Origin: a virus
IMG/VR virus record: IMGVR_UViG_3300032268_001078
Coordinates: 115,716 to 179,715 of that record
Reading direction: 5' to 3' (one strand)
Length of the DNA stretch: 64,000 bases
Below are positions 21,193 to 57,937 of the stretch, one piece after another. How positions within the stretch are numbered: the first letter of the stretch is position 1; each line of letters opens with the position of its first letter. Below the pieces are notes generated by a model. The model was not told the origin of the DNA. It did no database searches and saw nothing but the letters and a program-made list of their open reading frames with translations. A program made the position numbers and the translations under genes.

Positions 21193-21420
21193 CTATCCTT
21201 TAAGCCACTTATCTAAAATTGACTGTTGTTTTTGTGAAGCTTGATAGTTTTGTAATTTAATTGTATTTAATACTTTATAAATAAATTCAGTATTAGTATT
21301 AATATCAGCCCAACGTTTAAACCAAAGCCAAGCTTGTTCTCCTTCAGCATAACGCCCACCATTTCTATAAACTAGCGGACTAAAACTTTCTAAAAGTGAT
21401 TTTAAGGAAATATGAGACAT
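21193..21420 (-). CDS. Small hypothetical protein with (L/I)xE N-terminal tag
   Basis: 75 residues from ATG 21420 (MSHISLKSLLESFSP); the frame extends one codon to a TTG. Tryptophan-rich middle 'GEQAWLWFKRWADIN'. The start 'SLKSLLES' resembles the 'MIKLxxLLxE' tags of proteins at 52.7-56.2 kb and the capsid protein start 'QLLES'. Unknown function; possibly packaged. Lies between the metallophosphoesterase and FAD oxidoreductase genes with tight spacing. Confidence 0.65.
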   Translation of the reverse strand: MSHISLKSLLESFSPLVYRNGGRYAEGEQAWLWFKRWADINTNTEFIYKVLNTIKLQNYQASQKQQSILDKWLKG

Positions 21421-21425
21421 CAATA

Positions 21426-22520
21426 CTAAATATTGAAATAGGTTTGATTTTGTAAACCTTTTTCTTTATCCCACAAGAAAGCTTCAGCAGATTTACGAGC
21501 TCCAATGTATCCTTTTTTATGATGCCAACTATCTGTGCCACTTAAGCTACTCATATAACGAACCATTACGCCTTGTAGTTCATTGGTAGTATTAAATTTA
21601 GTTTCTTTTTTATGATGTAAATGACCTAAATGAAATTCTCTATATATAGTTTTAGCCCATTCAATAGGATTTTCTTGAGCCATTATCATTGGTAAATCTG
21701 TTACTTTTTCATTATTACCATGAGTAAGACCAATTAAACATTTACCATATGTGAAATACTTACGTGGACTTGCATTGTTATCTATAGTAACATTTTCATT
21801 ATTATGAAACCATCCTTGTAAACTATCACCTAAATAAAAACTACGCTCATAATCATGGTTACCAGGAATAACTTTAACTGTTACTGGTGCTATTTCTGAT
21901 AATTTTTGAATACCTGTAATTAATAATTCACGGCCTTTTCTAAATGTATTTTGCCATCTAGTATCTTCTTCTTGAGGTGTGCCACTTGTTGTAGCATTAA
22001 AAGGATGAGATCTATCTGAATTGAAGAAATCGTTTGAGATTGGAAATAGTATTTGATCTATATTAAAATTTTTATAGGTTTCAATAAAATAATCAATACA
22101 ATCATTGAAACGTTGTGTTGCAATATTAATATTATAATTTTCTCCAACTTCTTCATGCCAAGCTACTTTTCCAAAATGTAAATCAAAAATATTAATTTCT
22201 AATAGTTTACCAGGTTCAAGACTTGATAAAGTTGATTTTGATTTTACTACAGGAGATAACGATTTTAAATCATCTATAAATTGTTTTCTAATAGCATTTA
22301 AATCTATTTCTACTTGTTTACGATTTAACCATACTTTTACTTGAAATAAAGGTGTAGTTACAATTTTTCCATCTGGTCCTTTTGCACCTACTTCCCAACT
22401 GTTAACTATTTGTTTTTCTATATTCCATTCTTCTAATGAGATATTATGAATATTTAATAGTTGTTCTGTAGTTACAACTCTATTAGTAACCTCAGATGTT
22501 AAAACTTTTTCTATGCTCAT
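21426..22520 (-). CDS. Calcineurin-like metallophosphoesterase
   Basis: 364 residues. Metal-binding motifs in order: 'INIFDLHFGK' (D-x-H), 'FPISNDFFNSD' (variant GD/N), 'VIPGNHDYER' (GNHD), 'IGLTHGNN' and 'FHLGHLHHKKE' (GHxH). The first 90 residues form an extra N-terminal domain. This superfamily includes nucleases and phosphatases such as SbcD/Mre11; substrate here is unknown, and no SbcC partner is adjacent. Similar genes occur in other large aquatic phages. Both AT-rich upstream motifs overlap before its ATG (22533-22550). Confidence 0.85.
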   Translation of the reverse strand: MSIEKVLTSEVTNRVVTTEQLLNIHNISLEEWNIEKQIVNSWEVGAKGPDGKIVTTPLFQVKVWLNRKQVEIDLNAIRKQFIDDLKSLSPVVKSKSTLSSLEPGKLLEINIFDLHFGKVAWHEEVGENYNINIATQRFNDCIDYFIETYKNFNIDQILFPISNDFFNSDRSHPFNATTSGTPQEEDTRWQNTFRKGRELLITGIQKLSEIAPVTVKVIPGNHDYERSFYLGDSLQGWFHNNENVTIDNNASPRKYFTYGKCLIGLTHGNNEKVTDLPMIMAQENPIEWAKTIYREFHLGHLHHKKETKFNTTNELQGVMVRYMSSLSGTDSWHHKKGYIGARKSAEAFLWDKEKGLQNQTYFNI

Positions 22521-22552
22521 AAATTATTTTATATAAATATAATAAAATTTTT

Positions 22553-23587
22553 CTAAAATCCCAATTTTTCCTGGATTTTGTTTAGTACTTCTTCAGTACT
22601 CACTTCATTTTTTATAGGTTTATATTTAATTTCATGTCTTACTTCATTGCCATAAATTCTAGTTATATTGTCTTGAAACTCATGGTTTGGGGGTGTAAAA
22701 TCACTAATCAAAAATACGTGACAGTCACAACTATGTGCTAACCAACTCAAACCACTTGATACACCTATAAAATAAGAAGCTGAAGTTAGTTCGTTTACTC
22801 TGTCTTCTATTGGATAGTCGCCTGTTTTATCGATTATGTTTTTTAAGTTGGTTTTTTCGCGCGAAATCACCACAACTTCATAACCTTTTTCGACGAGGGT
22901 ATCAATAATTTTTTGCCAATCACCGTGCCACATTTTCATATCTAAACTAGCAAATTCACTTATGCAAATTTTGTTAGATTGTTTTTCTAAATTTGGTTTT
23001 TTCACATTAGCTTTTAAATGAACTCTGTCTAAACCTAAAATATCAGCTGCTATAAATGGAAGTGGTTCAGTAATATAAGAAGAAGGTTGATAAATTGGTT
23101 CATTTTTATCATGAGTTCCAACATAGTATTGAGCATACACATTATCTATTCTTGTATTAGGTTGAACAAACATAATATCTGGATAAGTTTCTATAAATAA
23201 ATTATTCCAAAAAGTTGAGCAAATTATTTTAGCTCCACTTGCTTGTCTAAGTGCTTCAATATATGGAATCCATGCTAAGTTATCACCTAAAGCATAAGCA
23301 TCTATTTTTATAAATACTACTTTATCTTTACAATTATAAACATCAGTATGAATTATTTCATTATTATTTTTAATAATTTCTACTTTCCAAAGTACTAAAT
23401 ACTGTACAGGACCACAAAACGGAACACCAGGAGTTATAGGCAATTCCATAAATCGATTTAATAAAGTATTAGTAAGTCTAACAGAATAAGTGTGTTGTAA
23501 TTCTTCTTCAGAATCAATTGTTAAAAGTACTTCAGGTGAACCTTGTTGAATAGGTAAATGTGTAATGTATTTTATAGAATATTTCAC
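22553..23587 (-). CDS. Glycosyltransferase, autotransporter heptosyltransferase-like (GT9 type)
   Basis: 344 residues with a GTG start. Two Rossmann halves: 'VFIKIDAYALGDNLAWIPYIEALRQASG' (N-terminal acceptor domain with the GDNL loop) and 'KICISEFASLDMKMWHGDWQKIIDTLVEKGYEVVVIS' then 'FIGVSSGLSWLAHSCDCHVFLISDF' (donor-binding domain). This matches the autotransporter strand-loop-strand O-heptosyltransferase family (TibC/BAHT relatives). Those enzymes glycosylate Ser residues of autotransporter adhesins. It directly follows two fibre genes, one with YadA-like repeats, so a virion fibre is a plausible acceptor (inference). Confidence 0.82.
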   Translation of the reverse strand: MKYSIKYITHLPIQQGSPEVLLTIDSEEELQHTYSVRLTNTLLNRFMELPITPGVPFCGPVQYLVLWKVEIIKNNNEIIHTDVYNCKDKVVFIKIDAYALGDNLAWIPYIEALRQASGAKIICSTFWNNLFIETYPDIMFVQPNTRIDNVYAQYYVGTHDKNEPIYQPSSYITEPLPFIAADILGLDRVHLKANVKKPNLEKQSNKICISEFASLDMKMWHGDWQKIIDTLVEKGYEVVVISREKTNLKNIIDKTGDYPIEDRVNELTSASYFIGVSSGLSWLAHSCDCHVFLISDFTPPNHEFQDNITRIYGNEVRHEIKYKPIKNEVSTEEVLNKIQEKLGF

Positions 23588-23621
23588 CCTATTAATATAA
23601 TAAAACCTTTAATAAAAACAA

Positions 23622-24119
23622 TTATGAAGGAATTCTTATGTAAGATCCTGATATTCTATAACCACTTCCAGTAAATGAAGCTGCTATATTATAATAGGCT
23701 CCACCTAAACTTACAGACATAGTAACTCCGGGAGCTCCACTTAAACGTTTTTGATAAATGTCTGTTATAAATTCATTTCCTCCACCATTATATGTTCCTA
23801 TAAAATACGAAGAACCACCTACAATAGATGAATTAAGTATTGATCCTGATGTAGCTGTCCAACTTAATTGATAATGAACAGGGGCATTAGTTGATGTATC
23901 AGTTGCAGGAATTTGTAAGAATATTGTATTTGAAGGGTTACTACCAAAACTATAATTAAAAGTTGTTGGTAAGGATGAGGTTAAGTTAGTATTATTAACA
24001 ATTAATGAACCAGTTATATTAACATTTCCATCTATTAAAGTACTACCTGTTATTTGTAGAGCGTATCCATTACTACTCCCACTGTCTTGTATTTCTATTC
24101 CAAAATCAAATGTTGACAT
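23622..24119 (-). CDS. Fibre-associated structural protein
   Basis: 165 residues. Gly/Ser/Thr-rich with fibre phrases 'LQITGSTLIDGNVNITGSLIVNN' and a C-terminal beta-rich globular part ending 'GSGYRISGSYIRIPS'. The 'ITGS' phrases match those in the 1-2638 fibre. It starts two nt after the YadA-like fibre gene, so the two are probably one functional unit, such as a fibre and its tip or chaperone. Serine-rich loops could be glycosylation acceptors for the next gene's product. Confidence 0.72.
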   Translation of the reverse strand: MSTFDFGIEIQDSGSSNGYALQITGSTLIDGNVNITGSLIVNNTNLTSSLPTTFNYSFGSNPSNTIFLQIPATDTSTNAPVHYQLSWTATSGSILNSSIVGGSSYFIGTYNGGGNEFITDIYQKRLSGAPGVTMSVSLGGAYYNIAASFTGSGYRISGSYIRIPS

Positions 24120-24120
24120 G

Positions 24121-25977
24121 TTATTTTCTTATCATTAAAGTTGTACCGTTTGCATAAACTCCTCCCACAGGAACACCATTAGTTGCAGCGTGCGCACTAC
24201 TACTATAATTCATATTAACCACTTGAGGCAGTACTATTGTACCATCATTTTGACTACCTCCATTTACTTTAGTTATTACTACTTCAAATAAATTAGTTCT
24301 AGGGCCTGATATATTTCCAGCTCCTACAATAAATGGTCTATAACCAACTGTATTATATGTGGTTGTTTGTTCTATATTTCCATGTCCTACTACAAATTGA
24401 GCAGTAGCTGAGGCTATAGTTTGATAACCACTAGTATGTGAATACTCTGATTTTGTTGTTGTTTTGTAACCTTCAGTGTGTGATGCTTGTCCTATAGTTG
24501 TTGTTAACCAGCCTTCAGCGTGTGAATATTGTCCAGAAGCGGTAACATATATACCTTCAGCATGTGAATAAAGTCCTGATGCTAATGTATAATATCCTTC
24601 AGCGTGAGCTCCTTCAGCTTTAGTTGTAGTAAATCCACCTTCAGTATGTGAAAATTGACCTATAGCTTTAGTTGCTCCTCCTTCAGCGTGACTATCTGGA
24701 CTTACAGCTGAAGATGAATTTCCTTCAGCATGAGAATAATCTCCTATAGTTATGGTGTAAAATCCTTCACTATGAGACGATATACCTAAAGCTGTAGTAC
24801 TTAATCCTTCAGCATGTGAATAATTACCCTTAGCTGTTGAAGATCCTCCTTCAGCGTGACTGTAAAGTCCAGAAGCTGATACTGTATTTCCATTAGCAAA
24901 TGAATAACTACCAACTGCTATAGAAGCTAAACCAAATGCAACTGATGATAATGATGAACTATTATTACTAGCTCCTATATTAACTGAAGATGTAGTTGAA
25001 TTACCAACAGATGTTACAGATTGTAAATTTTGATTAGTACTGTTTGCTAAATTTAAAGTTCCAGCTGTTTGATTATAACCATTAAAGAATGTAACAGTAT
25101 TACTTGATATAGAAGCAGATGCAAAATTTCCACTTGCTGTACCTCGTAAAGATCCTGTTGCTCCTGCTAAAAATACTGCTGAACCACTAAAATAACTTGT
25201 ATAAGTAGATGTATTACTATTATAACCACGTGTTCCACCAAATATAGCGTAAGGTACTGTATCAAAGGTTGTTTTACGAATAGTAAGAAGTGATGTTGCT
25301 GGTATTGTACTTGAACTTAAAACAAAATGCATAGTTGGAGCATCTTGTCCGCTAGGCTCAAATGCTACTATATTACCATTTCCAAAAGCATAATTTAATG
25401 CTAAAAATTGTTGGTTAGTTCCTACTCCAGGTTCCTCTCCTCTAAATACTTTTATTCCACCTAAAAAACCATCAAGACTTTCACTTGCTACTATTTGTAA
25501 ATTTCCATCAATATTAGTTGTAGAACCACTAAATCTTACATCATTATAAAAAGTAGTAGGCAAATAAAAACTAGCTGTTTGAGGATCAGATCCATTACTA
25601 CTAGTTACTGAAAAACTACCTGTAAATTGAAAAAATCCACCTCTTCCAACAGATTCACTTAGAATAGTAAATGAATTAGTAACATAATTTGAATAAGTAG
25701 CAAATAATGAATAATTAGTTACATTAGAAGCACTTAAAGCATAACTTGCTGTTTTAGCATTCATAGCATATGAAGCTGTAAATTTACCTAAGTCTTTAAT
25801 TTCAATTCCACCACCATTAGATCTTGATAAAATTAAACTATTACTTTGAAAATAATGTGTTGTATAACTAACACTTTGTGATTGTAAAGCAGCGTACTGT
25901 ATATTATTGTCACCTTCTGTAAAAGTAAGAGGTGATCCTTTGACGTTTCTTAATACTAATGAACCTAAATCTGGCAT
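24121..25977 (-). CDS. Fibre protein with YadA-head-like repeats
   Basis: 618 residues. N-terminal half: fibre-type 'ASYALSASNVTNY', 'GSFSVTSSNG' phrases. About residues 335-560: at least ten copies of a degenerate 14-residue repeat 'YSHAEG.ST.A.G.Y' (SHAEG, SHSEG, SHTEG, AHAEG forms), the same kind as Hep_Hag/YadA head repeats that fold into a trimeric left-handed beta-roll. C-terminus is short (GGVYANGTTLMIRK) and may be a trimerisation or attachment tip. An adhesin-like receptor-binding fibre is likely. Late-type motif 25993-26000 is upstream. Confidence 0.85.
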   Translation of the reverse strand: MPDLGSLVLRNVKGSPLTFTEGDNNIQYAALQSQSVSYTTHYFQSNSLILSRSNGGGIEIKDLGKFTASYAMNAKTASYALSASNVTNYSLFATYSNYVTNSFTILSESVGRGGFFQFTGSFSVTSSNGSDPQTASFYLPTTFYNDVRFSGSTTNIDGNLQIVASESLDGFLGGIKVFRGEEPGVGTNQQFLALNYAFGNGNIVAFEPSGQDAPTMHFVLSSSTIPATSLLTIRKTTFDTVPYAIFGGTRGYNSNTSTYTSYFSGSAVFLAGATGSLRGTASGNFASASISSNTVTFFNGYNQTAGTLNLANSTNQNLQSVTSVGNSTTSSVNIGASNNSSSLSSVAFGLASIAVGSYSFANGNTVSASGLYSHAEGGSSTAKGNYSHAEGLSTTALGISSHSEGFYTITIGDYSHAEGNSSSAVSPDSHAEGGATKAIGQFSHTEGGFTTTKAEGAHAEGYYTLASGLYSHAEGIYVTASGQYSHAEGWLTTTIGQASHTEGYKTTTKSEYSHTSGYQTIASATAQFVVGHGNIEQTTTYNTVGYRPFIVGAGNISGPRTNLFEVVITKVNGGSQNDGTIVLPQVVNMNYSSSAHAATNGVPVGGVYANGTTLMIRK

Positions 25978-26007
25978 AGTTTGTTATTTGTTATAAATAT
26001 ATTAATA

Positions 26008-26328
26008 TTATTTTTCTCTTATTAATAACTCTCCTAACACCTCTAAACGTCCAACTTCTCGTTGAAATTCAATTGGTGTCATATTTAATGATATTTTTTT
26101 TAATGTTTGTTCAAATTCCTTTTCAGCAACTTCTTTATTAAATTTGCTTTCAGTAGCTTTTTTATAGTAAGGAGCTTTAACTTTAAAGTGATGCCATGTT
26201 AATAAAGCTAAACCACCTTTTTCTTTAGCATTTGAAGCTATTTTAGCAGCACCTTCACCACGTTTTTTGGCAAACTCTTCAAAAGTTTCTTTCTTTATTT
26301 CTAATAATAATTTTATCAAGTTTATCAT
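26008..26328 (-). CDS. Small helical protein with N-terminal tag
   Basis: 106 residues, unrecognised. Begins 'MINLIKLLLEIKKETFEEFAKK', matching the MIxLxxLLxE tag (LLE|I) of the 52.7-56.2 kb proteins. The middle 'LALLTWHHFKVKAPYYKKA' is aromatic-rich; the rest is charged helix. Its ATG shares a base with the previous stop. Possibly a packaged head protein (inference). Confidence 0.7.
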   Translation of the reverse strand: MINLIKLLLEIKKETFEEFAKKRGEGAAKIASNAKEKGGLALLTWHHFKVKAPYYKKATESKFNKEVAEKEFEQTLKKISLNMTPIEFQREVGRLEVLGELLIREK

Positions 26329-27212
26329 TATCTACCTACAAGAAGAGATGTTTTAGTGCTATCAGGTTGGCCAGACATATCTGGATTATAATTTGGATTT
26401 CTTTGTTTATATCCTACTAACGGCGTTGAACGTCCTGAACTATCAATAACCTTAATTGTTATTTGTCTGTTTTTAATAGTAGGAAGTAATTTTTTCAAAA
26501 ATTCAACAAAGTCTCTTCTATCAGGGAATAATTCAGCTATGTCTCTTTCTTCAGAGTTTTTATTAACATTATATAAATAGTATCCTGATTTTAATTCAAT
26601 AGGACCCTTAACCTTTTGAGAGTATTTTAATTCAACATATGGTTTTAAGAATCTAAATACAGATACTTTGTATGTTGTAGATTTTTCTATTTTAGTACCG
26701 TCTTCTTGATCATATATTTTAGTTCTTGTTATATAGACATTATTATATCTGTCTTTCTCATCTACTTTAATTTTCTTAAATATTAAATCTTTATCTGCAC
26801 CTGTAGTTAAATCACCAAATTCTGAAGTGTCTCCAAGATCAAAAACATTGTCATTTGGTTCAACTTCTGGTGTTGTTACTTTTTTAGTTACATCACCCCT
26901 TAATGGAATTAAAATTCCTGCTTGTTTTAAGTCAGGAATAAAAGCTCTATTAATAGCTTGTCTACTAGTATAACCAAAAACAGTCATTAAATCAGTAGAC
27001 GTTAAAAAATCTTTATATTGAAGTTTTTCTAAACCTGATTTTAGTGTTTTATATCCTCTAGATGAGTTGTATTGATGAGTATTTTGAAAGTTAGTTGCTT
27101 TTGTTTCCCAATCATCTGCCAAAGTAAACATTTCTGTCATTCTAGGCATTTCTTCTAGATTGCGTCTTACAGCTTCATTTAGTACTTTTACTATAAATTT
27201 TTTAATATCCAT
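26328..27212 (-). CDS. Hypothetical protein with N-terminal tag and possible HTH
   Basis: 294 residues, unrecognised. N-terminus 'MDIKKFIVKVLNEAVRRNL' carries LNE|A, like the other tagged proteins. Around 85-110 'TSTDLMTVFGYTSRQAINRAFIPDL' looks like a helix-turn-helix. The C-terminal half (150-290) is beta-rich with 'YKVSVFRFLKPYVELKYSQ' and a helical 'RRDFVEFLKKLLPTIKNR'. Suggests a DNA-binding packaged protein, but this is a guess. Confidence 0.7.
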   Translation of the reverse strand: MDIKKFIVKVLNEAVRRNLEEMPRMTEMFTLADDWETKATNFQNTHQYNSSRGYKTLKSGLEKLQYKDFLTSTDLMTVFGYTSRQAINRAFIPDLKQAGILIPLRGDVTKKVTTPEVEPNDNVFDLGDTSEFGDLTTGADKDLIFKKIKVDEKDRYNNVYITRTKIYDQEDGTKIEKSTTYKVSVFRFLKPYVELKYSQKVKGPIELKSGYYLYNVNKNSEERDIAELFPDRRDFVEFLKKLLPTIKNRQITIKVIDSSGRSTPLVGYKQRNPNYNPDMSGQPDSTKTSLLVGR

Positions 27213-27223: not shown

Positions 27224-27757
27224 TTATTGTGTTGGAGTTTCTTCACCTGCTGAAAAAGGATTACCTCCTTCTTCTTCTCCACTTAACGGTTCAGGAGATG
27301 AATTTGATATATTTTCGCTTGTATCACCAGATGGTTCATTTCCTAACGGAGATCCCATTGCTAATAGTCTTGCTATTGCATCTATTGCTCTTCCTCTTTC
27401 ACCAACATTTAAAAGATAGTATTTTTTACCACTTACTTTAGCCATCCAAGTTCTTCCCATGTATATCATATAGAAATACTGATTGTTATGTAGAATTATT
27501 TTAAATGTTGTAGGAATAGGAGCAATAATATATATTCCTGTTATGTATTCTAAAAAATTATCTGTTAATAATGTTTCTAGAGTTTCTTTTAGAGTAGGAT
27601 AATAATAAAGAATATATCCTATTGGATCATCTTCAAATGTTGGTGTTGGTAATATTTCATCTATTGTATTATCAAATGATTCTTCACCCTGATTCCGTTC
27701 TTGTTGGAATTTCTCAAATTCTTGAGCAAAAATCTTTTTGAATGTTTCTAAATTCAT
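27224..27757 (-). CDS. Hypothetical protein with acidic tail
   Basis: 177 residues. N-terminal 'MNLETFKKIFAQEFEKFQQ' helix, a central hydrophobic stretch 'IGYILYYYPTLKETLETLL...EYITGIYIIAPIPTTFKIIL' and a last 40 residues rich in Pro, Ser, Glu and Gly. No catalytic motif. Could be membrane-associated or a packing protein. Starts and stops meet the neighbours' with one shared base. Confidence 0.65.
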   Translation of the reverse strand: MNLETFKKIFAQEFEKFQQERNQGEESFDNTIDEILPTPTFEDDPIGYILYYYPTLKETLETLLTDNFLEYITGIYIIAPIPTTFKIILHNNQYFYMIYMGRTWMAKVSGKKYYLLNVGERGRAIDAIARLLAMGSPLGNEPSGDTSENISNSSPEPLSGEEEGGNPFSAGEETPTQ

Positions 27758-28227
27758 TAGTATCCTGGATCTTCTTGACCGCCTGTAATAATATTTTTAG
27801 GATTTTTGTTTATTTTTTGATTATTAACTTCTTCACCATAAAGATAACCATAAACTGATTGTAAATAGTCTTCAGCTTTAGTTAATTTAGCTTGAACCCA
27901 TGCATCTAATTGTTCTTCTTGATCAATCATGTCACATAACCCTGTAGATAATCGTTTAATATTAGAAAGTTGACTGTAAGCCATATCAGCTTCATCATCT
28001 TTTTGCATCCAATCGTCTTCATATAATTTTTCTTCTAAATCAGTAGCATCATGGTGCATTTTAACAGGTTGTTCATCCATGTTTTTAGCAATAGCCATCC
28101 CACGTTTTTTTTCATACGGTGATATTATATCATCCTTGTTTAAGTCTGATTTTTGTCTATTGAATGGAACTGCTTCATTCATTGCTTGTTTTAAGCGCCA
28201 TTCGTGTATATCAAAATTATCCTTCAT
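27757..28227 (-). CDS. Hypothetical protein with MKDNFDI-type tag
   Basis: 156 residues. Begins 'MKDNFDIHEWRLKQAMNEAVPF': the first seven residues are nearly those of the proteins starting at 55222 (MRDNFDLHKW) and 57937 (MKNNFDIKKF), and a NE|A site follows at the same distance. The body is charged helix with 'DDWMQKDDEADMAY'. No domain recognised. Shared tag suggests it follows the same route as the other two proteins, possibly packaging with cleavage by the prohead protease. Confidence 0.7.
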   Translation of the reverse strand: MKDNFDIHEWRLKQAMNEAVPFNRQKSDLNKDDIISPYEKKRGMAIAKNMDEQPVKMHHDATDLEEKLYEDDWMQKDDEADMAYSQLSNIKRLSTGLCDMIDQEEQLDAWVQAKLTKAEDYLQSVYGYLYGEEVNNQKINKNPKNIITGGQEDPGY

Positions 28228-28858
28228 TTGCGAATTCTGTTAAAGAGTTATGTAATTTTACTTTTGTGAATTGGTGAGATATTTTTTCTACTGCTTGTTT
28301 TAGTTTTTCTTTACTGTATTTTGAGTTTTTATCTAATGGGAATTCGATATTAACTGCGTCTTTAGAGTAATAAACCAAAGGTAGTTTTTGTTTTTTCAAT
28401 GTATTTAATGCTTTATCACGTAATTGTTCAGTATCAAATACTAAACCTATATTTAACTCAGCTTCTGTTGATTTTGTTTTATCTTTTTTTTCGTCTTTTT
28501 CAAAAATACCAGCTAATTCTTGCATTCTTTTAATTTCATTTGCTGAACCAGCAGGTAAACCTTCACCAGATGCGCGACCGGGTTGGCTATTATTATAATT
28601 ATTCCAAACTGAATCAATACTCATCTCAAAATCTTCTTCAGGCCCCAGATCAAATTCTTCTGGTTCTATTAAACCAATATGAAATTTTTCTAAGTATGGT
28701 TCTACTTGTCCACTTGCCATAAATTCAGTTACTTCATCTGCATCTCCATCAAAATACTGAACTAAGTCCTCATAAAGATTATCAAAATCCTCATCAGTCC
28801 ATTTCATGATAATATTCTTATCACGATATTTGAAGAATATTCTGTCTAAATCGTTCAT
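28217..28858 (-). CDS. Hypothetical protein with RMQxLAGI motif
   Basis: 213 residues. N-terminal acidic helical half, a central linker with 'KRMQELAGIFE' (111-120), then a C-terminal alpha/beta domain (about 135-205: 'LNIGLVFDTEQLRDKALNTL...VNIEFPLD') and 'SLTEFANEG'. The RMQxLAGI motif recurs at the C-termini of the scaffold protein and the 52704-54041 protein. ends in SLTE. Function unknown; likely virion-associated. Confidence 0.7.
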   Translation of the reverse strand: MNDLDRIFFKYRDKNIIMKWTDEDFDNLYEDLVQYFDGDADEVTEFMASGQVEPYLEKFHIGLIEPEEFDLGPEEDFEMSIDSVWNNYNNSQPGRASGEGLPAGSANEIKRMQELAGIFEKDEKKDKTKSTEAELNIGLVFDTEQLRDKALNTLKKQKLPLVYYSKDAVNIEFPLDKNSKYSKEKLKQAVEKISHQFTKVKLHNSLTEFANEG

Positions 28859-29247: not shown

Positions 29248-29826
29248 TTATTGTATTTTTTCTTTCTGTAATTTAATCCAATCTTTTACTTCTTTAACAT
29301 GTTCTGGTGTTAAACTATTTCCAGTCCATTCATTTACTTCACCGTCTTCAGTTAAAGTTTTACTAAATCCTAATTTAATAAAATCATCAAATTCCATTTC
29401 TATATTATTTAACATTTGATTTAAATTATTAGTATGTAAGTTTTTAGCATATTCTTCAAATTTACCTTCTAACTTTAAATTACTTTCCATTTTAGCAATA
29501 CATGTAGGACATTTATGTAGTAAATTATACATGTATTTTACATAATCACTTTTGTGATTTAATAGTCCATTACATTCAGGACAAGTAAGAGGCATATTAA
29601 ATTGTTTTTTAAACTTACTTAATTTAGGAATACTTCTTTTAATACCATTTTTAATAGTCCAAGTTTTACCTTGTTCTTCCCATGTGTCTCCTTCTTTTCT
29701 TTGAATATTATTTTCATAACCTATTTGACTTTGTGTTTTATCGCCATGTTTTTTCATAACAATATTTCGCATTCTTTGTACTTCACGCTCAGTAAACTGG
29801 CGATTTAGTAATGTTTCTTTATTCAT
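29248..29826 (-). CDS. Zinc-ribbon-containing hypothetical protein
   Basis: 192 residues. 'LTCPECNGLL...HKCPTCIAKM' gives a CxxC...CxxC zinc ribbon near residues 78-113. N-terminal 'FTEREVQRMRNIVMKK' basic helix; C-terminal 'LTPEHVKEVKDWIKLQKEKIQ'. 'KTLTEDGEVNEW' holds LTE and VNE sites. Its ATG overlaps the previous gene's TGA (ATGA), so it is translationally coupled to the large fusion protein. Unknown function, possibly nucleic-acid binding. Confidence 0.7.
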   Translation of the reverse strand: MNKETLLNRQFTEREVQRMRNIVMKKHGDKTQSQIGYENNIQRKEGDTWEEQGKTWTIKNGIKRSIPKLSKFKKQFNMPLTCPECNGLLNHKSDYVKYMYNLLHKCPTCIAKMESNLKLEGKFEEYAKNLHTNNLNQMLNNIEMEFDDFIKLGFSKTLTEDGEVNEWTGNSLTPEHVKEVKDWIKLQKEKIQ

Positions 29827-32252
29827 AACTCGTATTTGTGTAATTTTTCTATTGATTCTTTTGAATTTTCTGGGTTGTTTTTTATTCCTATCCCACCAGC
29901 TTGAGTAAATTCTGTTGTGTTTTTACTCATATCATCTATTAAGATATAACCTTCTTTAGCTTCTGTGTGTTTATCTTTTGCTTGTTTAAATACTCTGCGA
30001 TTTTGTGGAATAGATGTATGTTTATTTAACCATTCATTTTTACCTTTTTTAGCGTCTCCATTAGGATCTAAACCAGGACTTGATAATACCCAAACTTCAA
30101 TACCATTTTTAGGAGCCATTTTCATAACATAATTATAAAGTTCTTTTCCTCCAGGATTCCAATTCATTCCTGACCAGTATGTATCTGTTCCTTTGTTAAT
30201 TATATCCCAAGCTTTTTTAGCGCCATATTTTCCAATGTATTCTTTAAAATCTAATTTTTCGTCATTGTATTTTTTAAACTGCTCGTCAAAATCAGCTAAT
30301 ACTCCATCTAAATCAAAGTAAATTCTTGTAATTTTTGGATTTTTTTTTTCATTTAATTTAGGAGTATTGTCATGTCCACATTTATGACACACATACATAT
30401 CTTTTCCTCCATCTTTCTTTTTCCAAGTCCAACCACAATTATCACAAGTTATAGTTTTTTTTGTTTCAGATTCGTTTAACACACCAATTTTATAAATGTC
30501 TGGGTTTTGTTTGCCATAGTCTCTCATAATAATACCAGCAATACTATTAGCATCATTTTCATGGTCACTGCCTGTTTCACCACTATTTGGTTTAAGTAAA
30601 CCTATTTCATTTTGTTTAGCATGAACTAATTCATGAGCTAATGTTCTATAAATGTCAACAATATTCCTATTAGAAGGATTAATGAGTATATGATGATCAA
30701 AGGGAACATAAGCCCCAAAGCTAGGTTGTTCCTCTCCGAATTCGTATCGGATTTCCAACGTTGGCGGGTTTTGAATTTGGAGTTCTTGACAGGCATAAGA
30801 CATAAAATTATTTAAAAGTGATTGGATATTATCTTGAGATGATTCATTCAATGAAATTGTTTTATCAATCAACTCATTTTTTAAATCATTCAATTTATCT
30901 AAATAACCTGTGTTTCTTAAATCTTTAAATGCTAAATTTTCAACTGAGTATTCTCCGTTTTTATCTAATCCAGCTTGTCTAAAATTCTTTAAACGTTCTT
31001 GTATTGTTTTTATTTGTTCTATTGATTTTTCAGGATTTTTATTTCCTGTTTTTAATAATTGATTTATTTTTTCTTTAAAAGGACGAGATTTTTTCTTAAT
31101 ATTTCCATCAGGAATATTTATAGCTTCATATTCTGGTTTCTTTTCCCATTTATCATTTAATACTGAATAAACTCCTGTAGATGTGTGTTTTTCATTTAGG
31201 TTTTGAACATAAATTTCTATAGGTTGTTTACCTAGTTTTGGATCATGAGCATTATTCCAATTATTTTTTGCTGAGTCAAACCATTTCTTTACCATTTCTG
31301 GGTTGGGAAATTTATTAAAATCAATAACAATGTGTAAATCTATATCAGATAAATTAGAATAATTGTAATTAGCAGATGAACCTGTTAATACAACATCATC
31401 AAATGGTTCAGGAATATCTAAACCATCCCAAAACATTGTAGCAATTTTTAATAATAATTCTTTAACTTGTGGGTCTAATTTGTCACCATCAAATAACATA
31501 GGATTAAGTTGGTTATTATTTTTATATTCTTCTAACCAAACCCAATTTTTTTCTTTATTATAGTTATTATCCTCTTGTAATGATTTAGGATTAATTGGAT
31601 TTATTTTTAGAATTTTTAAAAAATCATCAAATAATCCTTTATTAATAAGAGATTCAGGCATTAATGCTTTTAAATAATCATATGTGTTGTTATAATCATT
31701 TAAAGCTATTGTATATTCTTTAGTTCCTTTTTGTTGTTTACGTAGTTTATTAAAAGTTTCTTTTAATTTACTTATTGTTCCAACAAATTCAGCTTCACCA
31801 ACGTCTTCTCCATCTTTATCAGTAAAATGATCATTTATAACTTGACTATAAACACGATCACTAAATTTTTCTTGTAGTTTATTTACATACCCATTAGTTG
31901 TTTCTTCTTGAGATCCAGCAACATATGCTTCATTTTCTAAATTAGCAAAAAAGCTAAATAAGTCTTTAATAGGAGATGCATTTTTAGCAATAGCAATTTT
32001 TACCTTTGGATTTGGATTAGATTCTAAATATAAATCCCAAATAGCTTTACTTTGTTGTGGAGTAACATTGTTTTTAGTATCGTTTCCTATTAAAACAATA
32101 ACTTGATTTATATAGTTTTTTCCAGCTAATGATTCAACAGCATTAAAATGTCCTTTATTAGGTGGTTTAAAAGCCCCTGGATAATAACATGATAAAGGAG
32201 GATTTGCTATTTGTTCTCCTATTTGTTTCCCTATTTGTTCTATATTTACCAT
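29823..32252 (-). CDS. Multidomain fusion: adenylyltransferase-like, MNT nucleotidyltransferase, metalloprotease, zinc ribbon, HAD phosphatase
   Basis: 809 residues with at least five domains. 1-165: nucleotidyltransferase with 'PGAFKPPNKGHFNA' (25-38), the (T/N)xGH motif of NMN/pantetheine-phosphate adenylyltransferases. 285-355: pol-beta-type 'LTGSSANYNYSNLSDIDLHIVID' (289-310; GS..D.D). 475-580: zinc metalloprotease 'LAHELVHAKQ' (HExxH at 540-544). 603-627: Cys4 zinc ribbon (CDNC, CHKC). 640-809: HAD phosphatase 'FDLDGVLADF' (646-655), 'LSSP' and 'LIDDMSKN', like 5'-nucleotidases. (L/I)xE sites sit at the joins: LQE 225-227, LNE 468-470, LNE 592-594, LNE 633-635. It may be a polyprotein cut by the prohead protease (inference). 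Confidence 0.85.
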   Translation of the reverse strand: MVNIEQIGKQIGEQIANPPLSCYYPGAFKPPNKGHFNAVESLAGKNYINQVIVLIGNDTKNNVTPQQSKAIWDLYLESNPNPKVKIAIAKNASPIKDLFSFFANLENEAYVAGSQEETTNGYVNKLQEKFSDRVYSQVINDHFTDKDGEDVGEAEFVGTISKLKETFNKLRKQQKGTKEYTIALNDYNNTYDYLKALMPESLINKGLFDDFLKILKINPINPKSLQEDNNYNKEKNWVWLEEYKNNNQLNPMLFDGDKLDPQVKELLLKIATMFWDGLDIPEPFDDVVLTGSSANYNYSNLSDIDLHIVIDFNKFPNPEMVKKWFDSAKNNWNNAHDPKLGKQPIEIYVQNLNEKHTSTGVYSVLNDKWEKKPEYEAINIPDGNIKKKSRPFKEKINQLLKTGNKNPEKSIEQIKTIQERLKNFRQAGLDKNGEYSVENLAFKDLRNTGYLDKLNDLKNELIDKTISLNESSQDNIQSLLNNFMSYACQELQIQNPPTLEIRYEFGEEQPSFGAYVPFDHHILINPSNRNIVDIYRTLAHELVHAKQNEIGLLKPNSGETGSDHENDANSIAGIIMRDYGKQNPDIYKIGVLNESETKKTITCDNCGWTWKKKDGGKDMYVCHKCGHDNTPKLNEKKNPKITRIYFDLDGVLADFDEQFKKYNDEKLDFKEYIGKYGAKKAWDIINKGTDTYWSGMNWNPGGKELYNYVMKMAPKNGIEVWVLSSPGLDPNGDAKKGKNEWLNKHTSIPQNRRVFKQAKDKHTEAKEGYILIDDMSKNTTEFTQAGGIGIKNNPENSKESIEKLHKYEL

Positions 32253-52459: not shown

Positions 52460-52703
52460 ATTGACATAAATATAATAACAAAGTTTATTTTTCCCCCCTC
52501 CATAACTTAGGAAAACTAATTTGTAAAACAAAAACTAAGTATAATAATTTGATTTTAAGGCAATCACACCAATCAGATCCAACATTAAGGTTATCCTTAT
52601 GTAGTTTAAGACATACTAGTCTGTTTGTGAGACAATAGTATGATAATAAAAAAGGGTAAAAAGCCAAAACTCTTTACCCCTTCTTTTATAAGTAAATTTT
52701 ATA
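52460..52703 (-). other. Intergenic stretch with terminator
   Basis: About 240 nt without a supported gene. It holds the terminator below and an A-rich leader for the glutaredoxin-like gene. The rest has short palindromes (e.g. GTCTTAAAC...) but no gene signal. Confidence 0.6.
52648..52680 (-). terminator. Intrinsic terminator after the 52704-54041 gene
   Basis: Stem GGGTAAA/TTTACCC (52673-52679 with 52654-52660) with an 12-nt loop, followed on the minus strand by six T residues (52648-52653), 24 nt beyond the gene's stop codon. Confidence 0.8.
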
Positions 52704-54041
52704 TTATCTAATTCCAGCCATTCGTTGAATTCTTTCAAGTAAAGCATTATCAGCATCATCTGCTGTTAAATCACTTCTCATTTGACTAAACATACCTTTC
52801 AACTGATTCATTTGTTGAGGTGTTATTCTATCATTAATAATATTAGTAATTAATTGAATAAATTCATTATTTTCTAATTTATAAATATCTTGTAAAAAAT
52901 CGTCTCTTTCAGCTGGTGTAACATTGGTTTCTAATTTATTAATTACATCTTGTAAACCTTTAGCTATAATTTGACCATAAGCAATATCTTCAGGTTCATT
53001 TTGAATTTTATCAGTATATTTAACTACTTTTTCTCCTCTTTCTAAATCACTAAAACCAAATAAACCAATAATTTCATACATTCCTTTTACAATTTCATGA
53101 ATTAATACTGGAAAACAAATAGCTCTTGCTTTAATAATCCATTTTTCTTTTTCAAAATCAAAATAAACACTTTCAGCTCCTACACTACTATCTTCCATTG
53201 GTGATCCACCCCCTCCTGACATTCCTAACATAAAATCAATCATATCAAGGGCCGCTTGCATTAAATCTCTGTATTTATCACTTGCACCTTCTCCACTAAC
53301 AATATCAACATATTCTTGTTGAACATAATGAGCTGTTTTACTTAAACTTGCTCCACCTTGAGTTACAGAATTAATAAGTCTTCTTTTCATTAATTCACCT
53401 GTTAATTCTTCAGCTTCATCTTCTTCTTCTTCATCCATTTCAGGTGTATTTAAAGCATCTTTAACTTGAGATTGTGGAACTATTTTAGCATCAATTTCAA
53501 TAGCATCAGTTTGTGCTAAATAAGGATAAGCTTCATTAACAACATCTAAAGCTAGTTGTTCTAATAAATCTTCGTTTCCTTTTTCCATTTGCATTACTTG
53601 CATAGCAAGTTGTTGCATTTGTCTTCCTACTTGCATTGGATTTTTACCTTGAATCCTTTGAGCAACTCCACCTTTAAGTTTACCTAAAGTTTCAGGATCA
53701 AAAATTTTATCATACTCAGCTTCATTTAATTTATCAAATTCAGCCTTATATCTAGCTACAATTTTATTCATAATACTATTTGAAGCTTCTTTCATTCCAG
53801 CTGGTTTTGGTTTTGGACCGTTTTTAGGAGCCTGATGTGGTTTTTCTGTTCCTTTAGTTTGAGCTTTAGGAGCTGGTTTAGGACTAGTAGCTGGACTTGG
53901 AACAGAACGTCTTCTAGGTTCTGGTCTTGTAGAAGGTCTTCCTGGCATTACATCCGGTTGAGGAGCTTTTCCTGGTTGTTCCTGAGGAGCTCTTTGTGGA
54001 GCAGCAGGACTTTCATTTAAAAGATTTTTAAGCTTAATCAT
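52704..54041 (-). CDS. Tagged virion-type protein with RMAGI C-terminus
   Basis: 445 residues. Starts 'MIKLKNLLNESPAAP' (LLNE tag), followed by a Pro/Arg/Lys-rich linker of about 70 residues that begins right after the candidate cut. Then helical body with 'FDKLNEAEYDKIFDPETL', 'LALDVVNEAYPYL', an acidic patch, 'AESVYFDFEKEKWIIKARAICFPVLIHEIVKGMYEIIGLFG'. C-terminus 'LLERIQRMAGIR' resembles the scaffold end 'RMQKLAGIK'. Probably a head-core or packaged protein; not recognised by name. Confidence 0.75.
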   Translation of the reverse strand: MIKLKNLLNESPAAPQRAPQEQPGKAPQPDVMPGRPSTRPEPRRRSVPSPATSPKPAPKAQTKGTEKPHQAPKNGPKPKPAGMKEASNSIMNKIVARYKAEFDKLNEAEYDKIFDPETLGKLKGGVAQRIQGKNPMQVGRQMQQLAMQVMQMEKGNEDLLEQLALDVVNEAYPYLAQTDAIEIDAKIVPQSQVKDALNTPEMDEEEEDEAEELTGELMKRRLINSVTQGGASLSKTAHYVQQEYVDIVSGEGASDKYRDLMQAALDMIDFMLGMSGGGGSPMEDSSVGAESVYFDFEKEKWIIKARAICFPVLIHEIVKGMYEIIGLFGFSDLERGEKVVKYTDKIQNEPEDIAYGQIIAKGLQDVINKLETNVTPAERDDFLQDIYKLENNEFIQLITNIINDRITPQQMNQLKGMFSQMRSDLTADDADNALLERIQRMAGIR

Positions 54042-54229
54042 AGTATTATTATAACAATAAATATATTATAAATTAGTATCTTATAAATCTCTAAATAGTT
54101 TTTTAATTACTTTTTTGTGGGTATTTAAATAATTTTTTGACTTCGACTACTTTGATATATTAACGTTTATTATTAATATTACCAAATAAACTTTCGCTTA
54201 TTCCGTCAATTAAATTCAAATATAAATTA
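54042..54229 (-). other. Intergenic region, 188 nt
   Basis: Holds the late-type motif 54057-54064 before the 54041 start. A minus frame reading NNNLYLNLIDGISESLFGNIN ends in TAA but has no ATG, so it is not called a gene. No terminator with a clear stem and T-tract was seen. Confidence 0.4.
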
Positions 54230-55222
54230 TTATTTATAAGGATCTAAAATATAACCATCTTCCATTTTATTTTGTACCATATTAATAGAAAATTTACTAA
54301 TATATTCACTATTATCTTTCTTAAGTAAAACACTATTACCTTCAAAACCTACTATATAATAACTAGATTCAGAACTTATCACTCCAGGTTCAATAGTATC
54401 TCCTTTACCTAAATAAATAATATTAGGGTTAAAGTCTTTAGCCATTTCTAAATCATCTGGTGTTAATTCAAATTTTTCATTTACTTTATCTAAAATTTTA
54501 ACATCAACTTGTAAGTCTTCCCATTCATTTTCCCAAGGTGATTCATAATAATCTTCAGGTATATCTTCAATAACTTCATCACCTTCTAGTATTTTTCTCA
54601 TTAAAAAATCACTATCCCATAGATTATCATAAATAATTGATTCAATTTCTTCTGGGTTATAAGGAATAGACATTCCTAATTCTCTTTCTAAATCTTCACT
54701 ATTAATTATACATTTAGTCGTTTTTTCAATTAAATCATTCTCTTCATCTTCATAATTATAAAAATTATATGTTGAATGACTTATTATTTCAATATTAAAA
54801 TCTTGGAAATGTTTAGCTAATTCTAAATCTTCGTCTCCTAAAGAAAATTCTTCTTCTTTTAATTTAGGTTTAGGTAAAATTATTTTATGTCCATTTGAAA
54901 GCATTTTTTGAACATCATCAAGATCCATTTTAAATACATTACGTGGCTCACCTTCTTCAACTAAATTTATTTTCCAAACAGCAACACCATTTTTATCTTC
55001 TTGATATATTTTTTGAACAATAAAATTACCATTTCCTATGTATCTGTAAATTATATCTGGATTTTTAAACATATTGGCATTGATTTTACTGCCTTTTGTT
55101 ATGTTTTGATTTTGAAGACCCTTAGCTAATTCTAAATCGTTATCTCCTAAAGAAAATTCTTCTTGTTCATTTAAGAATAATTGATATTCTTTCCATTTAT
55201 GTAAGTCAAAGTTGTCTCTCAT
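54230..55222 (-). CDS. Modular FELGDEDLELAK-repeat protein (three units)
   Basis: 330 residues from ATG 55222 (MRDNFDLHKW); the ATGA overlap with the previous TGA supports this start over a codon 15 nt upstream. Three modules begin 'EEFSLGDNDLELAKGL' (21-36), 'EEFSLGDEDLELAKHF' (124-139) and 'EKFELTPDDLEMAKDF' (249-264), each after a possible (L/I)xE or VNE (FLNE, KLKE, KVNE). Modules 1 and 3 end in a beta-rich body ('GDTIEPGV', 'KGSKINANMF'), and module 2 in an acidic helical body. Bodies resemble those of the 56234-57937 protein. No known domain recognised. Confidence 0.8.
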   Translation of the reverse strand: MRDNFDLHKWKEYQLFLNEQEEFSLGDNDLELAKGLQNQNITKGSKINANMFKNPDIIYRYIGNGNFIVQKIYQEDKNGVAVWKINLVEEGEPRNVFKMDLDDVQKMLSNGHKIILPKPKLKEEEFSLGDEDLELAKHFQDFNIEIISHSTYNFYNYEDEENDLIEKTTKCIINSEDLERELGMSIPYNPEEIESIIYDNLWDSDFLMRKILEGDEVIEDIPEDYYESPWENEWEDLQVDVKILDKVNEKFELTPDDLEMAKDFNPNIIYLGKGDTIEPGVISSESSYYIVGFEGNSVLLKKDNSEYISKFSINMVQNKMEDGYILDPYK

Positions 55223-55608
55223 TTTGTTTTTCCCCAAGTTTTACCTTTACCTTTTCTTTTACATCCAGCTGGAGTAGGTCTACAAGCAGGATACTTTGAT
55301 CTTACTTCACCTTTTTTTCTTCCACAAGCTTTATAACCTCCTTTTCCATCAGGAGCATTACAATCTACCCAACCACCTTCTTTACCTTTTGGACCTGAAC
55401 GTTTAAACCACTTATGAAGCGATTCATCTTCATTAACTGTTTCTTCAGAAATTCCTTTCCAAATTTCACCTCTACGACATCTAACTACAGCACCTGACTT
55501 ATAAGCTGATGGTTTGTCAAACTTACGATCAGCAATTCGAAGACATCTGTCTCGTTTTGATTTTTTTTCAGTAAGAACTTCTGTTAATATATTTGTAAGT
55601 TTAATCAT
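55219..55608 (-). CDS. DUF5872-like Cys-rich protein with tag
   Basis: 129 residues. Starts 'MIKLTNILTEVLTEKKSKRDR' (ILTE, VLTE sites). Then 'CLRIADRKF...SAYKSGAVVRCRRGEIWKG', a motif common to phage proteins. C-terminal 60 residues 'LHKWFKRSGPKGKEGGWVDC..PDGKGGYKACGRKKGEVRSKYPACRPTPAGCKRKGKG' match the DUF5872 pattern (WFKR, GWVDC, CGRKKGE, YPACRPT). Basic; probably binds nucleic acid; function unknown. Confidence 0.8.
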   Translation of the reverse strand: MIKLTNILTEVLTEKKSKRDRCLRIADRKFDKPSAYKSGAVVRCRRGEIWKGISEETVNEDESLHKWFKRSGPKGKEGGWVDCNAPDGKGGYKACGRKKGEVRSKYPACRPTPAGCKRKGKGKTWGKTK

Positions 55609-55846
55609 TTATAGGTTCCCACCAATTAGTACAATATTCATCAGCTGCATAAGGAATTTTATTTGTACCTGCCCAATCACTGTAATAAGTACTTGTACAA
55701 ATTTGTTCTTCTTTATTCCAAAATTTACAATTAGCACAACAAGAACCTCCTTTAGGTACTTTTAAACCGGCTTTATGGGTTGGAGGTAAAATCATTTCAC
55801 CTTTACCACCATAGTTTTCTGTTAATATGTTTGTAAGTTTAATCAT
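55601..55846 (-). CDS. Small Cys-rich protein with tag
   Basis: 81 residues from ATG 55846 (MIKLTNILTENYGGKGEM); the frame extends to 55996 but that part lies inside the preceding gene. 'KGGSCCANCKFWNKEEQICTSTYYSDW...IPYAADEYCTNWWEP' has five Cys in a HiPIP-like or zinc-like arrangement. Tag ends LTE|N. Shares eight bases with the next gene. Unknown role. Confidence 0.75.
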   Translation of the reverse strand: MIKLTNILTENYGGKGEMILPPTHKAGLKVPKGGSCCANCKFWNKEEQICTSTYYSDWAGTNKIPYAADEYCTNWWEPIND

Positions 55847-55847
55847 A

Positions 55848-56237
55848 TTACCATTTTCTACAAGACCAATAGTTTGCTTTATGGCGAGGACCTGGATTAT
55901 CACAATGGTGTCTTGCTCTATAAGCTGCTCTTCGTTTAGGATTATTTTTCTTAATAACCATTCGTTTACCTTTAGCACTTTTGCCTCCAAAACCAAAATT
56001 TACTTTAACTACTTTACCTTTAGGATTTTTAACATATACCTTAAATTTTTTGATGTCACCTTGCATAGGTTTACCTAATTGTACCTTACGACCTTTGTAT
56101 TCTGCTTCACGTAAACAAGAATCACAATCAGTAGATTTATATTCTCTCATAAATTGAATAAACGATCTAACATCATCAATGTTTTCAACATCGTATTCTT
56201 CAATTTCATTATTAATAAGTTCAGTTAATTTTATCAT
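55848..56237 (-). CDS. Basic phage protein with RRxxYRARHxCxNPGPRHKANYWSC motif
   Basis: 129 residues. N-terminal 'MIKLTELINNEIEEYDVENI' (tag with INNE), middle 'AEYKGRKVQLGKPMQGDIKKFKVYVKNPKGKVVKVNFGFGG', and C-terminal 'KKNNPKRRAAYRARHHCDNPGPRHKANYWSCRKW', a motif I associate with other phages. Cys pair 'CDSCLREAEY' near 38-41. Likely nucleic-acid-binding; not named. Confidence 0.78.
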   Translation of the reverse strand: MIKLTELINNEIEEYDVENIDDVRSFIQFMREYKSTDCDSCLREAEYKGRKVQLGKPMQGDIKKFKVYVKNPKGKVVKVNFGFGGKSAKGKRMVIKKNNPKRRAAYRARHHCDNPGPRHKANYWSCRKW

Positions 56238-57937
56238 CTGTTATAAATATTAGGTTCAATCATATATTCTGGTTTTAATAAATAATTAATATTTTCTATG
56301 TCGATATTAATTTCATTTCCATTTTCAGTATTTAAATAAACATAATTATCTTCAATCATAGAAATTGTCCAATTTTCATCACGATTATCAATAAAATTTT
56401 CTAAGTCAGGATTATTTGGATTCCACATATTAGGAGTAATTTGGTTACCTACTTCTAAGTATTTAATAACTTTTAAACCATTAGTTAATCCAATATCTTC
56501 AGGACCCATTTCAAAAGTTTCGTTTATATTATTTTCTAAATAAGCATCAAAATCACCAATTAATTCTTTATTAGTTATATTTAAATATGGTTCCATATCT
56601 CCATAATCATACATATCTAACATGTATTCTTTAATATTGTCTAATTCAAAATTAGCTTTAATTAAAATAGGAACAGCCCATTCTTTAAATTCTTCATATG
56701 TTTCTCCTGTCCAATTTTCTTCATCTAAACCTTTAGCCAGTTCTAAATCTTCATCACCCAACTCAAATGTTTCCTCTAAATCATTTTTACTAGGAATATA
56801 AGCATTTATATTATTCATAAGATCTTTATTAAAATAATCTACAGTAAAAGTATAAACATTCTCAGGACGCATAGCAAACTCAAATGCTACTATTTCATCA
56901 TCATAATAAACAAGTTCTTTATACTGGCCTTCATTTGGACCTATGTAAATAATTTTTTTAACAAGACTACGTATACGTGAAGGAGCATCTTCTAATTTTG
57001 TCCAAGCACCAGCATATTCAGGATTAGAACTATCATAAAAATAGTCTCCTACTTTAAGTTCACGTTTATTAAAATCTTTAGCTAGTTCTAAATCTTCATC
57101 TCCTAATTCAAAGTCTTCATTAACTCGATTTAAAGGTTTAATTAAATCAACAGTAACTTCCATTTCATCAAGATTCCAAGCATCTTGAGGAAATTTAGAC
57201 CAATTAATAGGATTAAATACTTTATAAGCTTTATCTTGAATCCACTCTTCAATAAGATGACTACTCCACAAATCAGCAGGTTGCCCAAGTTCCTCATAAG
57301 CTAATTCTATAAGACTTTCATAAAGTGTCTCTATAAAAGCTTTGTCTTTTAATTTACTAGGAATTTCATCTGCAGCATAAGTTTCATATGGACTGTATTT
57401 ATCAATTAATTCTACTAATTCATCAACACTATAGTGAAGTCTATAAGTAGTTTCATGATCAGGTACACTTGGAAATGCTTTAGAATCACTATTCCAATTA
57501 TAAATAAGATGAACGTCTACTTGTACTTCAGGTTCATCATTAAGTTGTTTTGCCAATTTTAAATCTTCATCTCCAAGTTCAAATGACTCGTCTATGGGTT
57601 CTGCTTCAATTCGAAATTCAGGTTTTAAATAACCATTAATTTCATGTAAATCAAAATCAAATTCATAGCCAGTTTGTTGTTGTAAAGTAATAAATTCTCC
57701 ATCTTCATCTGTGTCTATATTTAAAATATATAAGGATTTATCTTGAAAATTAGGATCAAATGACTCACCCCACATTTCAGGCTCAATAGTGTCACCTTGT
57801 GTTAAAAATTTAACATTTAAACCTTTAGCCAGTTCTAAGTCTTCATCACCCAATTCAAATTCTTCATTTATGATTTTTGAATTTCTAGTAACTTTGTTTT
57901 CAATAAGAAATTTTTTAATGTCAAAATTGTTTTTCAT
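56234..57937 (-). CDS. Modular FELGDEDLELAK-repeat protein (five units)
   Basis: 567 residues. Tag 'MKNNFDIKKFLIEN' (LIE|N at 11-13). Modules begin at about 25 'EEFELGDEDLELAKGL', 117 'ESFELGDEDLKLAKQL', 274 'EDFELGDEDLELAKDF', 389 'ETFELGDEDLELAKGL' and 473 'ETFEMGPEDIGLTNGL'. Each is preceded by INE, IDE, VNE, LEE or INE, close to (L/I)xE. Module 1 and 5 bodies are homologous ('LTQGDTIEPEMW...YLKPEFRIEAEP' and 'LEVGNQITPNMW...LLKPEYMIEP'). Module 2 ends like module 2 of the neighbour. Acidic overall. No known domain; possible cleaved polyprotein. ATGA overlap with next gene. Confidence 0.82.
   Translation of the reverse strand: MKNNFDIKKFLIENKVTRNSKIINEEFELGDEDLELAKGLNVKFLTQGDTIEPEMWGESFDPNFQDKSLYILNIDTDEDGEFITLQQQTGYEFDFDLHEINGYLKPEFRIEAEPIDESFELGDEDLKLAKQLNDEPEVQVDVHLIYNWNSDSKAFPSVPDHETTYRLHYSVDELVELIDKYSPYETYAADEIPSKLKDKAFIETLYESLIELAYEELGQPADLWSSHLIEEWIQDKAYKVFNPINWSKFPQDAWNLDEMEVTVDLIKPLNRVNEDFELGDEDLELAKDFNKRELKVGDYFYDSSNPEYAGAWTKLEDAPSRIRSLVKKIIYIGPNEGQYKELVYYDDEIVAFEFAMRPENVYTFTVDYFNKDLMNNINAYIPSKNDLEETFELGDEDLELAKGLDEENWTGETYEEFKEWAVPILIKANFELDNIKEYMLDMYDYGDMEPYLNITNKELIGDFDAYLENNINETFEMGPEDIGLTNGLKVIKYLEVGNQITPNMWNPNNPDLENFIDNRDENWTISMIEDNYVYLNTENGNEINIDIENINYLLKPEYMIEPNIYNR

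Follow-up and report, generated by a model that had tools for sequence, protein, structure and literature searches.

Why should proteins that otherwise look unrelated begin with the same short peptide? The question is raised by a 64,000-nt part (G000:C1:115716-179715; hereafter the window) of a 179,715-base virus record, IMG/VR IMGVR_UViG_3300032268_001078, in which an initial annotation had noticed two styles of N-terminal tag, A and B, ending in (L/I)xE and had read them as a route into the prohead, after the capsid-targeting sequence (CTS) of T4 internal proteins. Every start that it listed is present, all on the minus strand (Table 1). The evidence set out below supports that capsid-targeting interpretation, the route into the prohead being argued by analogy, and the tags very probably serve a T4-like phage lineage as propeptides that target proteins to the capsid and are then removed.

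As the initial annotation had proposed, the same tags were sought on unrelated proteins of related phages. IMG/VR, in which the records scanned were mostly uncultured, was searched with degenerate DNA patterns of the tag only (all counts are lower bounds), and the bodies left after removal of the tag residues were grouped by BLASTP at 1e-4 with single linkage. This gave at least 240 non-identical tagged proteins in at least 123 body families, bodies that are also tag-free elsewhere, so that unrelated proteins do share tags as had been suggested. A third tag, D (MKKQILSEEFxRMQKLAGIxxE, e.g. MKKQILSEEFxRMQKLAGIITES), had been absent from the initial annotation. Among the matches listed, 77 body families carry tag A, 28 tag B and 22 tag D, a few having more than one tag type, and 95 of the 123 are singletons, whilst 44 proteins form one cluster (tag B, L050-L158). 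Across the 112 family representatives, no column but the E of (L/I)xE is invariant, this E being imposed by the search pattern in tag A alone. The position of this residue in tag B lay outside the pattern and was hence unforced; among the matches listed, the residue two past NFDxKKFL is E in 87 of 89 proteins compared with 2 of 24 chance-context hits. LxE falls at residues 10-13 in 87/89 tag-B proteins and at the pattern-defined residue 10 in tag A.

Across 36 records, the relaxed tag-A pattern matched 35 times versus once when read backwards, and an MQxLAG pattern 19 times versus 0. When a tag-A profile was trained on other phages, the three exact window starts scored 25.8-28.5, whilst the best score among the other ~800 internal Met positions of this genome was -4.2; the start at 55846, an internal ATG within a longer TTG-started frame, had fallen into the internal-Met list owing to that upstream TTG. 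With a strict tag-A profile in one genome, hits were not significantly commoner at N-termini than internally, because few genes carry tag A and a genuine start had been classed as internal. An [LI]xE 8-13 residues past a Met was found at 33/217 N-termini versus 70/789 internal Mets in this genome (p=0.006), and at 37/219 versus 56/752 (p=6e-5) in its closest cultured relative, Flavobacterium phage vB_FspM_immuto (immuto; gp23 64% identical over the aligned 72%).

Bodies occur with a tag, without one or with another, and untagged versions begin near the (L/I)xE position. The T4-GC71 body (motif KWDGAPAVV) is untagged in cyanophages, with S-PM2 starting MATQNKHLEHLED, begins MYNDLLVE/DKNTHLEHLED in pelagiphage HTVC008M and reads MIKFTEMLNE/SKAGKNLHLEHLED in an IMG/VR contig (L384). 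The DUF5872 body is untagged in Roseobacter phage CRP-902, where it starts MAAKKKPKRDAC, and is preceded by MIKLTNILTEVLTE in the window, MIKLTNILLEVLTE in a related record (G001) and AYIENIIKEILSE in immuto. Judged from these starts, the tags are add-on modules. Pfam matches among the tagged bodies include two lysozymes, an M23 peptidase, a zeta-type kinase, a NUDIX protein, a DEDDh-type exonuclease and a GNAT protein, enzyme types apt for virion cargo. The T4-GC190 cytidylyltransferase family, which adjoins the T4-GC71 gene in S-PM2, has been detected in virions of cyanophage S-SM1 (PMC3037559), indirectly supporting the cargo reading; membership of the window protein 29823-32252 in T4-GC190 is not implied. 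Elsewhere, a tag-A DUF5872 protein (L235:3076-4218) has inserted stretches, one ParB-like by eye, and LQE ahead of the DUF5872 start.

The source genome is, on its gene content, a ~180-kb T4-like phage carrying gp23, a putative scaffold and gp21 protease. Its minus strand bears a head block of T4 type, made up of the large terminase, portal (phrog_213), gp21 protease, a scaffold-position gene and gp23. The protease has 37 relatives in IMG/VR; the scaffold gene is placed by its position between gp21 and gp23, a PHROG search of its protein giving no match. The phrog_207 protease was found in 21 of 28 tag-bearing records, and in 15 of the 16 of at least 99 kb. As for the chance-match records (n=8), one (G030) itself carries tags, and of the other seven, one had a weak phrog_207 match.

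In T4, gp21 cuts after L/I-X-E and removes N-terminal targeting propeptides of 10-19 residues, and the CTS is thought to bind the core (PMC9026906); ten residues suffice to target IPIII to the head before gp21 removes them, and the internal proteins have only the CTS in common (PMC9026906, PMC3012670). T4 IPIII with the E of its site changed is reportedly packaged and left uncut. Like the CTS of IPI-III and Alt, the tags are short N-terminal peptides on unrelated proteins, with L/I-X-E at about residue 10 and a gp21-family protease in the genome. They differ in sequence, in forming at least three classes on ~10-20 candidate cargo genes per genome, in that one tag is identical to the scaffold C-terminus, and in the addition of predicted cargo polyproteins. 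By analogy, the tag system is of the T4 CTS kind, much expanded. The inner head proteins of phiKZ and SPN3US likewise have N-terminal propeptides cut after xE by a gp21-related protease, with extra internal sites, whilst here the cleavage is predicted; several of those propeptides exceed 100 residues, and the counterpart of the T4 scaffold there is unconfirmed (PMC5694885).

Packaging, cleavage, docking partner and injection are argued by analogy. Cargo proteins would attach to the core of the growing prohead through a peptide at their N-terminus (tag A MIKLxxLLxE, tag B NFDLKKFLxE...xxE or tag D), which in the case of tag D would bind the partner that the scaffold itself uses; after shell closure the gp21-type protease would cut behind (L/I)xE, and the freed body would remain with the DNA for injection. 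In part, cargo would be synthesized as a single tagged string of beads, every bead preceded by a cut site (56234-57937, 54230-55222). If so, a ten-residue pattern would predict virion-borne, injected proteins among the unknowns of a large group of aquatic T4-like phages, making more than 100 mostly nameless families candidates for early host takeover or anti-defence. The scaffold-peptide tag would then offer a simple natural means of filling a phage shell with proteins, and the repeat proteins would be an instance of polyprotein synthesis and maturation within a phage head.

Tag D repeats the extreme C-terminal peptide of the phage scaffold protein. Among the matches listed, RMQKLAGI has 117 unique contexts: in 90 it lies within four residues of the protein C-terminus, nearly all of them scaffold-type with starts MANKDLFKQAIA/MSNNRDLLKEAI, and in 25 it follows the start Met by 5-15 residues, the carriers being mostly small and unrelated. 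That the motif is constant within tag D carries no weight, as it was a requirement of the search pattern. An [ILVM]xE stands just after it in 25/25 N-terminal tags, whilst in 80 of the 90 C-termini one lies no more than 12 residues ahead of it (at a distance of exactly 6 in 70), compared with a mean of 18.5 and a maximum of 34 in a shuffled control; the scaffold of Microcystis phage Mel-JY01 ends ILNESNNVVERMKKLAGIVK. Because tag D is the scaffold C-terminal peptide, we infer that it docks where the scaffold docks, and part of the cargo may borrow the peptide by which the scaffold docks. Short coat- or scaffold-binding peptides load cargo into shells in the case of the P22 scaffold C-terminus, which was engineered, and of encapsulin targeting peptides; unlike engineered P22 loading, the tag here is natural, has a predicted cut site and occurs on many proteins. 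In G001 the counterpart of the window region 28217-28858 is a separate 115-aa protein starting MQSAVEIKRMQALAGIISEE, of which RMQELAGI is part of the N-terminal tag, and the window gene therefore looks like a fusion. Another G001 protein (82462-84195, L415; 577 aa) begins MSTLPNNETQRMQVLAGL and ends QKLAGIIE, with a scaffold-type motif at both ends.

One alternative concerns tag D only, and holds that RMQKLAGI is a relic of a fused scaffold fragment with no docking role, whilst tags A and B bind the scaffold as in T4, which is compatible with the propeptide explanation of those two tags. The core affinity supposed for the T4 CTS (PMC9026906) fits it, as does the additional upstream LxE of 19 of the 25 RMQKLAGI tags, possibly an older signal, but a single relic explains poorly why RMQKLAGI-type motifs stand at both termini of G001 82462-84195 and on 22 body families, and we consider it rather unlikely.

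Tandem repeats, also absent from the initial annotation, make up the proteins 56234-57937 and 54230-55222, which are paralogues and whose repeats open with a FELGDEDL-like stretch. The G001 homologue of the first surfaced only in a six-frame search of related records, a peptide-pattern search of IMG/VR having found no relatives; it has 1,537 aa and fifteen repeats. An [LIVM]xE within nine residues before the repeat was present at 8/8 junctions in the window and 23/23 with the G001 homologue included ([LI]xE at 19/23), whilst sliding the boundaries by 10-45 residues placed a site there in a mean of 15% and a maximum of 30%. The long form of tag B holds its own LxE (NFDIKKFLIE) and a terminal second site (KIINE), both previously unnoticed, and the 841-aa gp079 of immuto joins the bodies of window genes 27224-27757 and 27757-28227 with LNE, LKE and LQE between. 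On this pattern of sites, the two repeat proteins resemble polyproteins that the prohead protease would cut into beads. The model of one repeat shows a small beta-rich domain, barrel-like in shape and flexible at its start (predicted local distance difference test, pLDDT, 83.8; predicted template modelling score, pTM, 0.70), for which no significant structural match was found in PDB or BFVD, and neither protein gave a Pfam or PHROG domain or a peptidase family match. Phage polyvalent proteins similarly place several domains in one packaged polypeptide, their release being attributed to peptidase domains that they contain (Iyer et al. 2017, PMC5512222); unlike these, the window beads match no peptidase family or known effector domain, and their junctions match the prohead protease site. 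We lean slightly towards the combined view that cargo copies the scaffold RMQKLAGI as a cleavable tag, is delivered in part as polyproteins cut by the prohead protease, and that bodies move between tagged genes and polyproteins.

Alternatively, the tags might dock to some other phage complex (tail, replication or transcription), (L/I)xE being a helix-capping pattern rather than a cut site. Many proteins begin with a short amphipathic helix, structure prediction gives the tag of 26008-26328 as a short helix of its own, and a similar style of start is found on conserved tail-region genes (46209; immuto 81525), for which reason MKKSQLRxIIKEAL-style starts were left out of the tag counts. Yet the site follows three unrelated tags, flanks the scaffold peptide and precedes 23/23 repeat junctions, the protease gene co-occurs with the tags, and the RMQKLAGI shared by tag and scaffold speaks for the head, making this option improbable. 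Inheritance of the tags with one or a few paralogous families that retained their N-termini, the explanation that the initial annotation had itself set against its own, draws on the 44-protein cluster and the paralogy of the two window repeat proteins but is excluded for the set as a whole by tags on 123 body families, 95 of them singletons, and by bodies with different tags or none, which leaves it a negligible chance.

Several observations weigh against the propeptide reading. The start at 56237 (MIKLTELINNEIEE) lacks LxE at residue 10 and fits poorly, as does the loose tag at 21420, which may be chance. The window scaffold (PIIKADDQISRMQKLAGIK) has the RMQ[KQ]LAGI peptide without [IV]xE just ahead, and so does that of G001. 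Grouping by BLASTP at 1e-4 may have split remote homologues into separate families, and the E and L positions of tag A were partly forced by the search pattern. No virion proteome of immuto was found, and a text search of the flavophage paper returned no mass spectrometry. Relaxed tag-A and RMQ/MQxLAG patterns gave 0 matches in T4, S-PM2, P-SSM2, P-SSM3, ACG-2014e, HTVC008M and XaC1, and the link to the T4 CTS therefore rests on form and protease, not on sequence. Among annotated phages, the tag-B and tag-D peptides matched immuto only, Mel-JY01 has a MIKLKQLLNE start, and none of the papers searched contained the tag sequences.

Table 1. Tags, head genes and repeat proteins in the window
Feature	Position	Strand	Remarks
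Tag A MIKLKNLLNE of protein 52704-54041 (445 aa)	54012..54041	-	G001 homologue tagged too: MIKLKSLLLE
Tag A MIKLTNILTE of DUF5872 protein 55219-55608	55579..55608	-	homologues untagged (CRP-902) or differently tagged (immuto)
Tag A MIKLTNILTE of protein 55601-55846 (81 aa, Cys-rich)	55817..55846	-	
Partial tag A MIKLTELINN of protein 55848-56237 (phrog_7595 C-terminal domain)	56208..56237	-	
Tag A-like MINLIKLLLE of protein 26008-26328	26299..26328	-	homologues carry MIKLTDILKE (exact tag) and MRLLELLRE
Loose tag MSHISLKSLLE of protein 21193-21420	21388..21420	-	weakest member
Long tag B MKNNFDIKKFLIENKVTRNSKIINE of protein 56234-57937	57863..57937	-	
Tag B MRDNFDLHKWKEYQLFLNE of protein 54230-55222	55166..55222	-	
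Tag B MKDNFDIHEWRLKQAMNE of protein 27757-28227	28174..28227	-	G001 homologue retains tag B
CTS-like start MDIKKFIVKVLNE of protein 26328-27212	27174..27212	-	G001 homologue MEKRNLIKAILVEA
gp21-family prohead serine protease, predicted tag cutter	10527..11159	-	phrog_207 E=5.8e-54
gp22-position scaffold protein, N-terminus MSNNKKLFEEAIADAK, C-terminus ...ISRMQKLAGIK	9003..10385	-	homologous to G001 and immuto scaffolds; gene order 21-22-23
Scaffold C-terminal peptide RMQKLAGIK, common to tag D	9006..9032	-	
Major capsid protein (gp23 type), N-terminus MSTINQLLES	7287..8975	-	phrog_138 E=3.2e-67
Predicted cargo polyprotein, 5 repeats from 57859, 57583, 57112, 56767, 56515	56234..57859	-	F[ES][LM]G[DP]EDL starts, [LIV]xE before each
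Second predicted cargo polyprotein, 3 repeats from 55156, 54847, 54472	54230..55156	-	[LV]xE before each
RMQELAGI inside protein 28217-28858	28505..28528	-	N-terminal tag of separate protein in G001

The tag A list of the initial annotation held in part, being exact at 54041, 55608 and 55846, only partial at 56237 and 26328, and loose at 21420. Its tag B starts at 28227, 55222 and 57937 are exact (MKDNFDIHEW..MNE; MRDNFDLHKW..LNE; MKNNFDIKKFLIE..INE), and the CTS-like start at 27212 (MDIKKFIVKVLNEA) and the MSTINQLLES of the capsid protein are as it had read them. Protein 52704-54041 has a C-terminus (LLERIQRMAGIR) that weakly resembles the scaffold peptide, and its G001 homologue ends RLQRLAGL; G001 also joins a tag MIKLKDILLE to a C-terminal domain shared with 55848-56237. 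Further tagged genes, not in the initial annotation, lie outside the window in the 180-kb contig, in which one protein (record 90711-92591) starts MKKLLNEDVIKMQKLAGL. Many tag-B proteins of the L050-L158 cluster have internal modules such as LRxKIREMIxAELG, with [LIV]xE inside, plus YYKDAEADDAEHIDALEKDMK stretches.

The multidomain protein 29823-32252 has a cytidylyltransferase-like start (by eye), a metalloprotease match, a zinc ribbon with LNE sites on both sides (VLNESETKK...PKLNEKKNP) and a 5'-3' deoxyribonucleotidase; the nucleotidase counterpart in immuto is a separate gene with the N-terminal ...NLADLLLEESD, and a similar zinc ribbon sits behind a tag MIKLKHILTE in L291. PADLOC found little on this material. 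Two small paralogues (59051-59401 and 60642-61031) have KQKGRPVNPNSPRQLRL in common. Small HNH-like (CxxCGxxKSITEY) and GIY-YIG-like (MTYIYLVEN...YIGK) genes recur at 6715-7221 and elsewhere in the contig, one of them adjoining the capsid gene, and are likely homing endonucleases.

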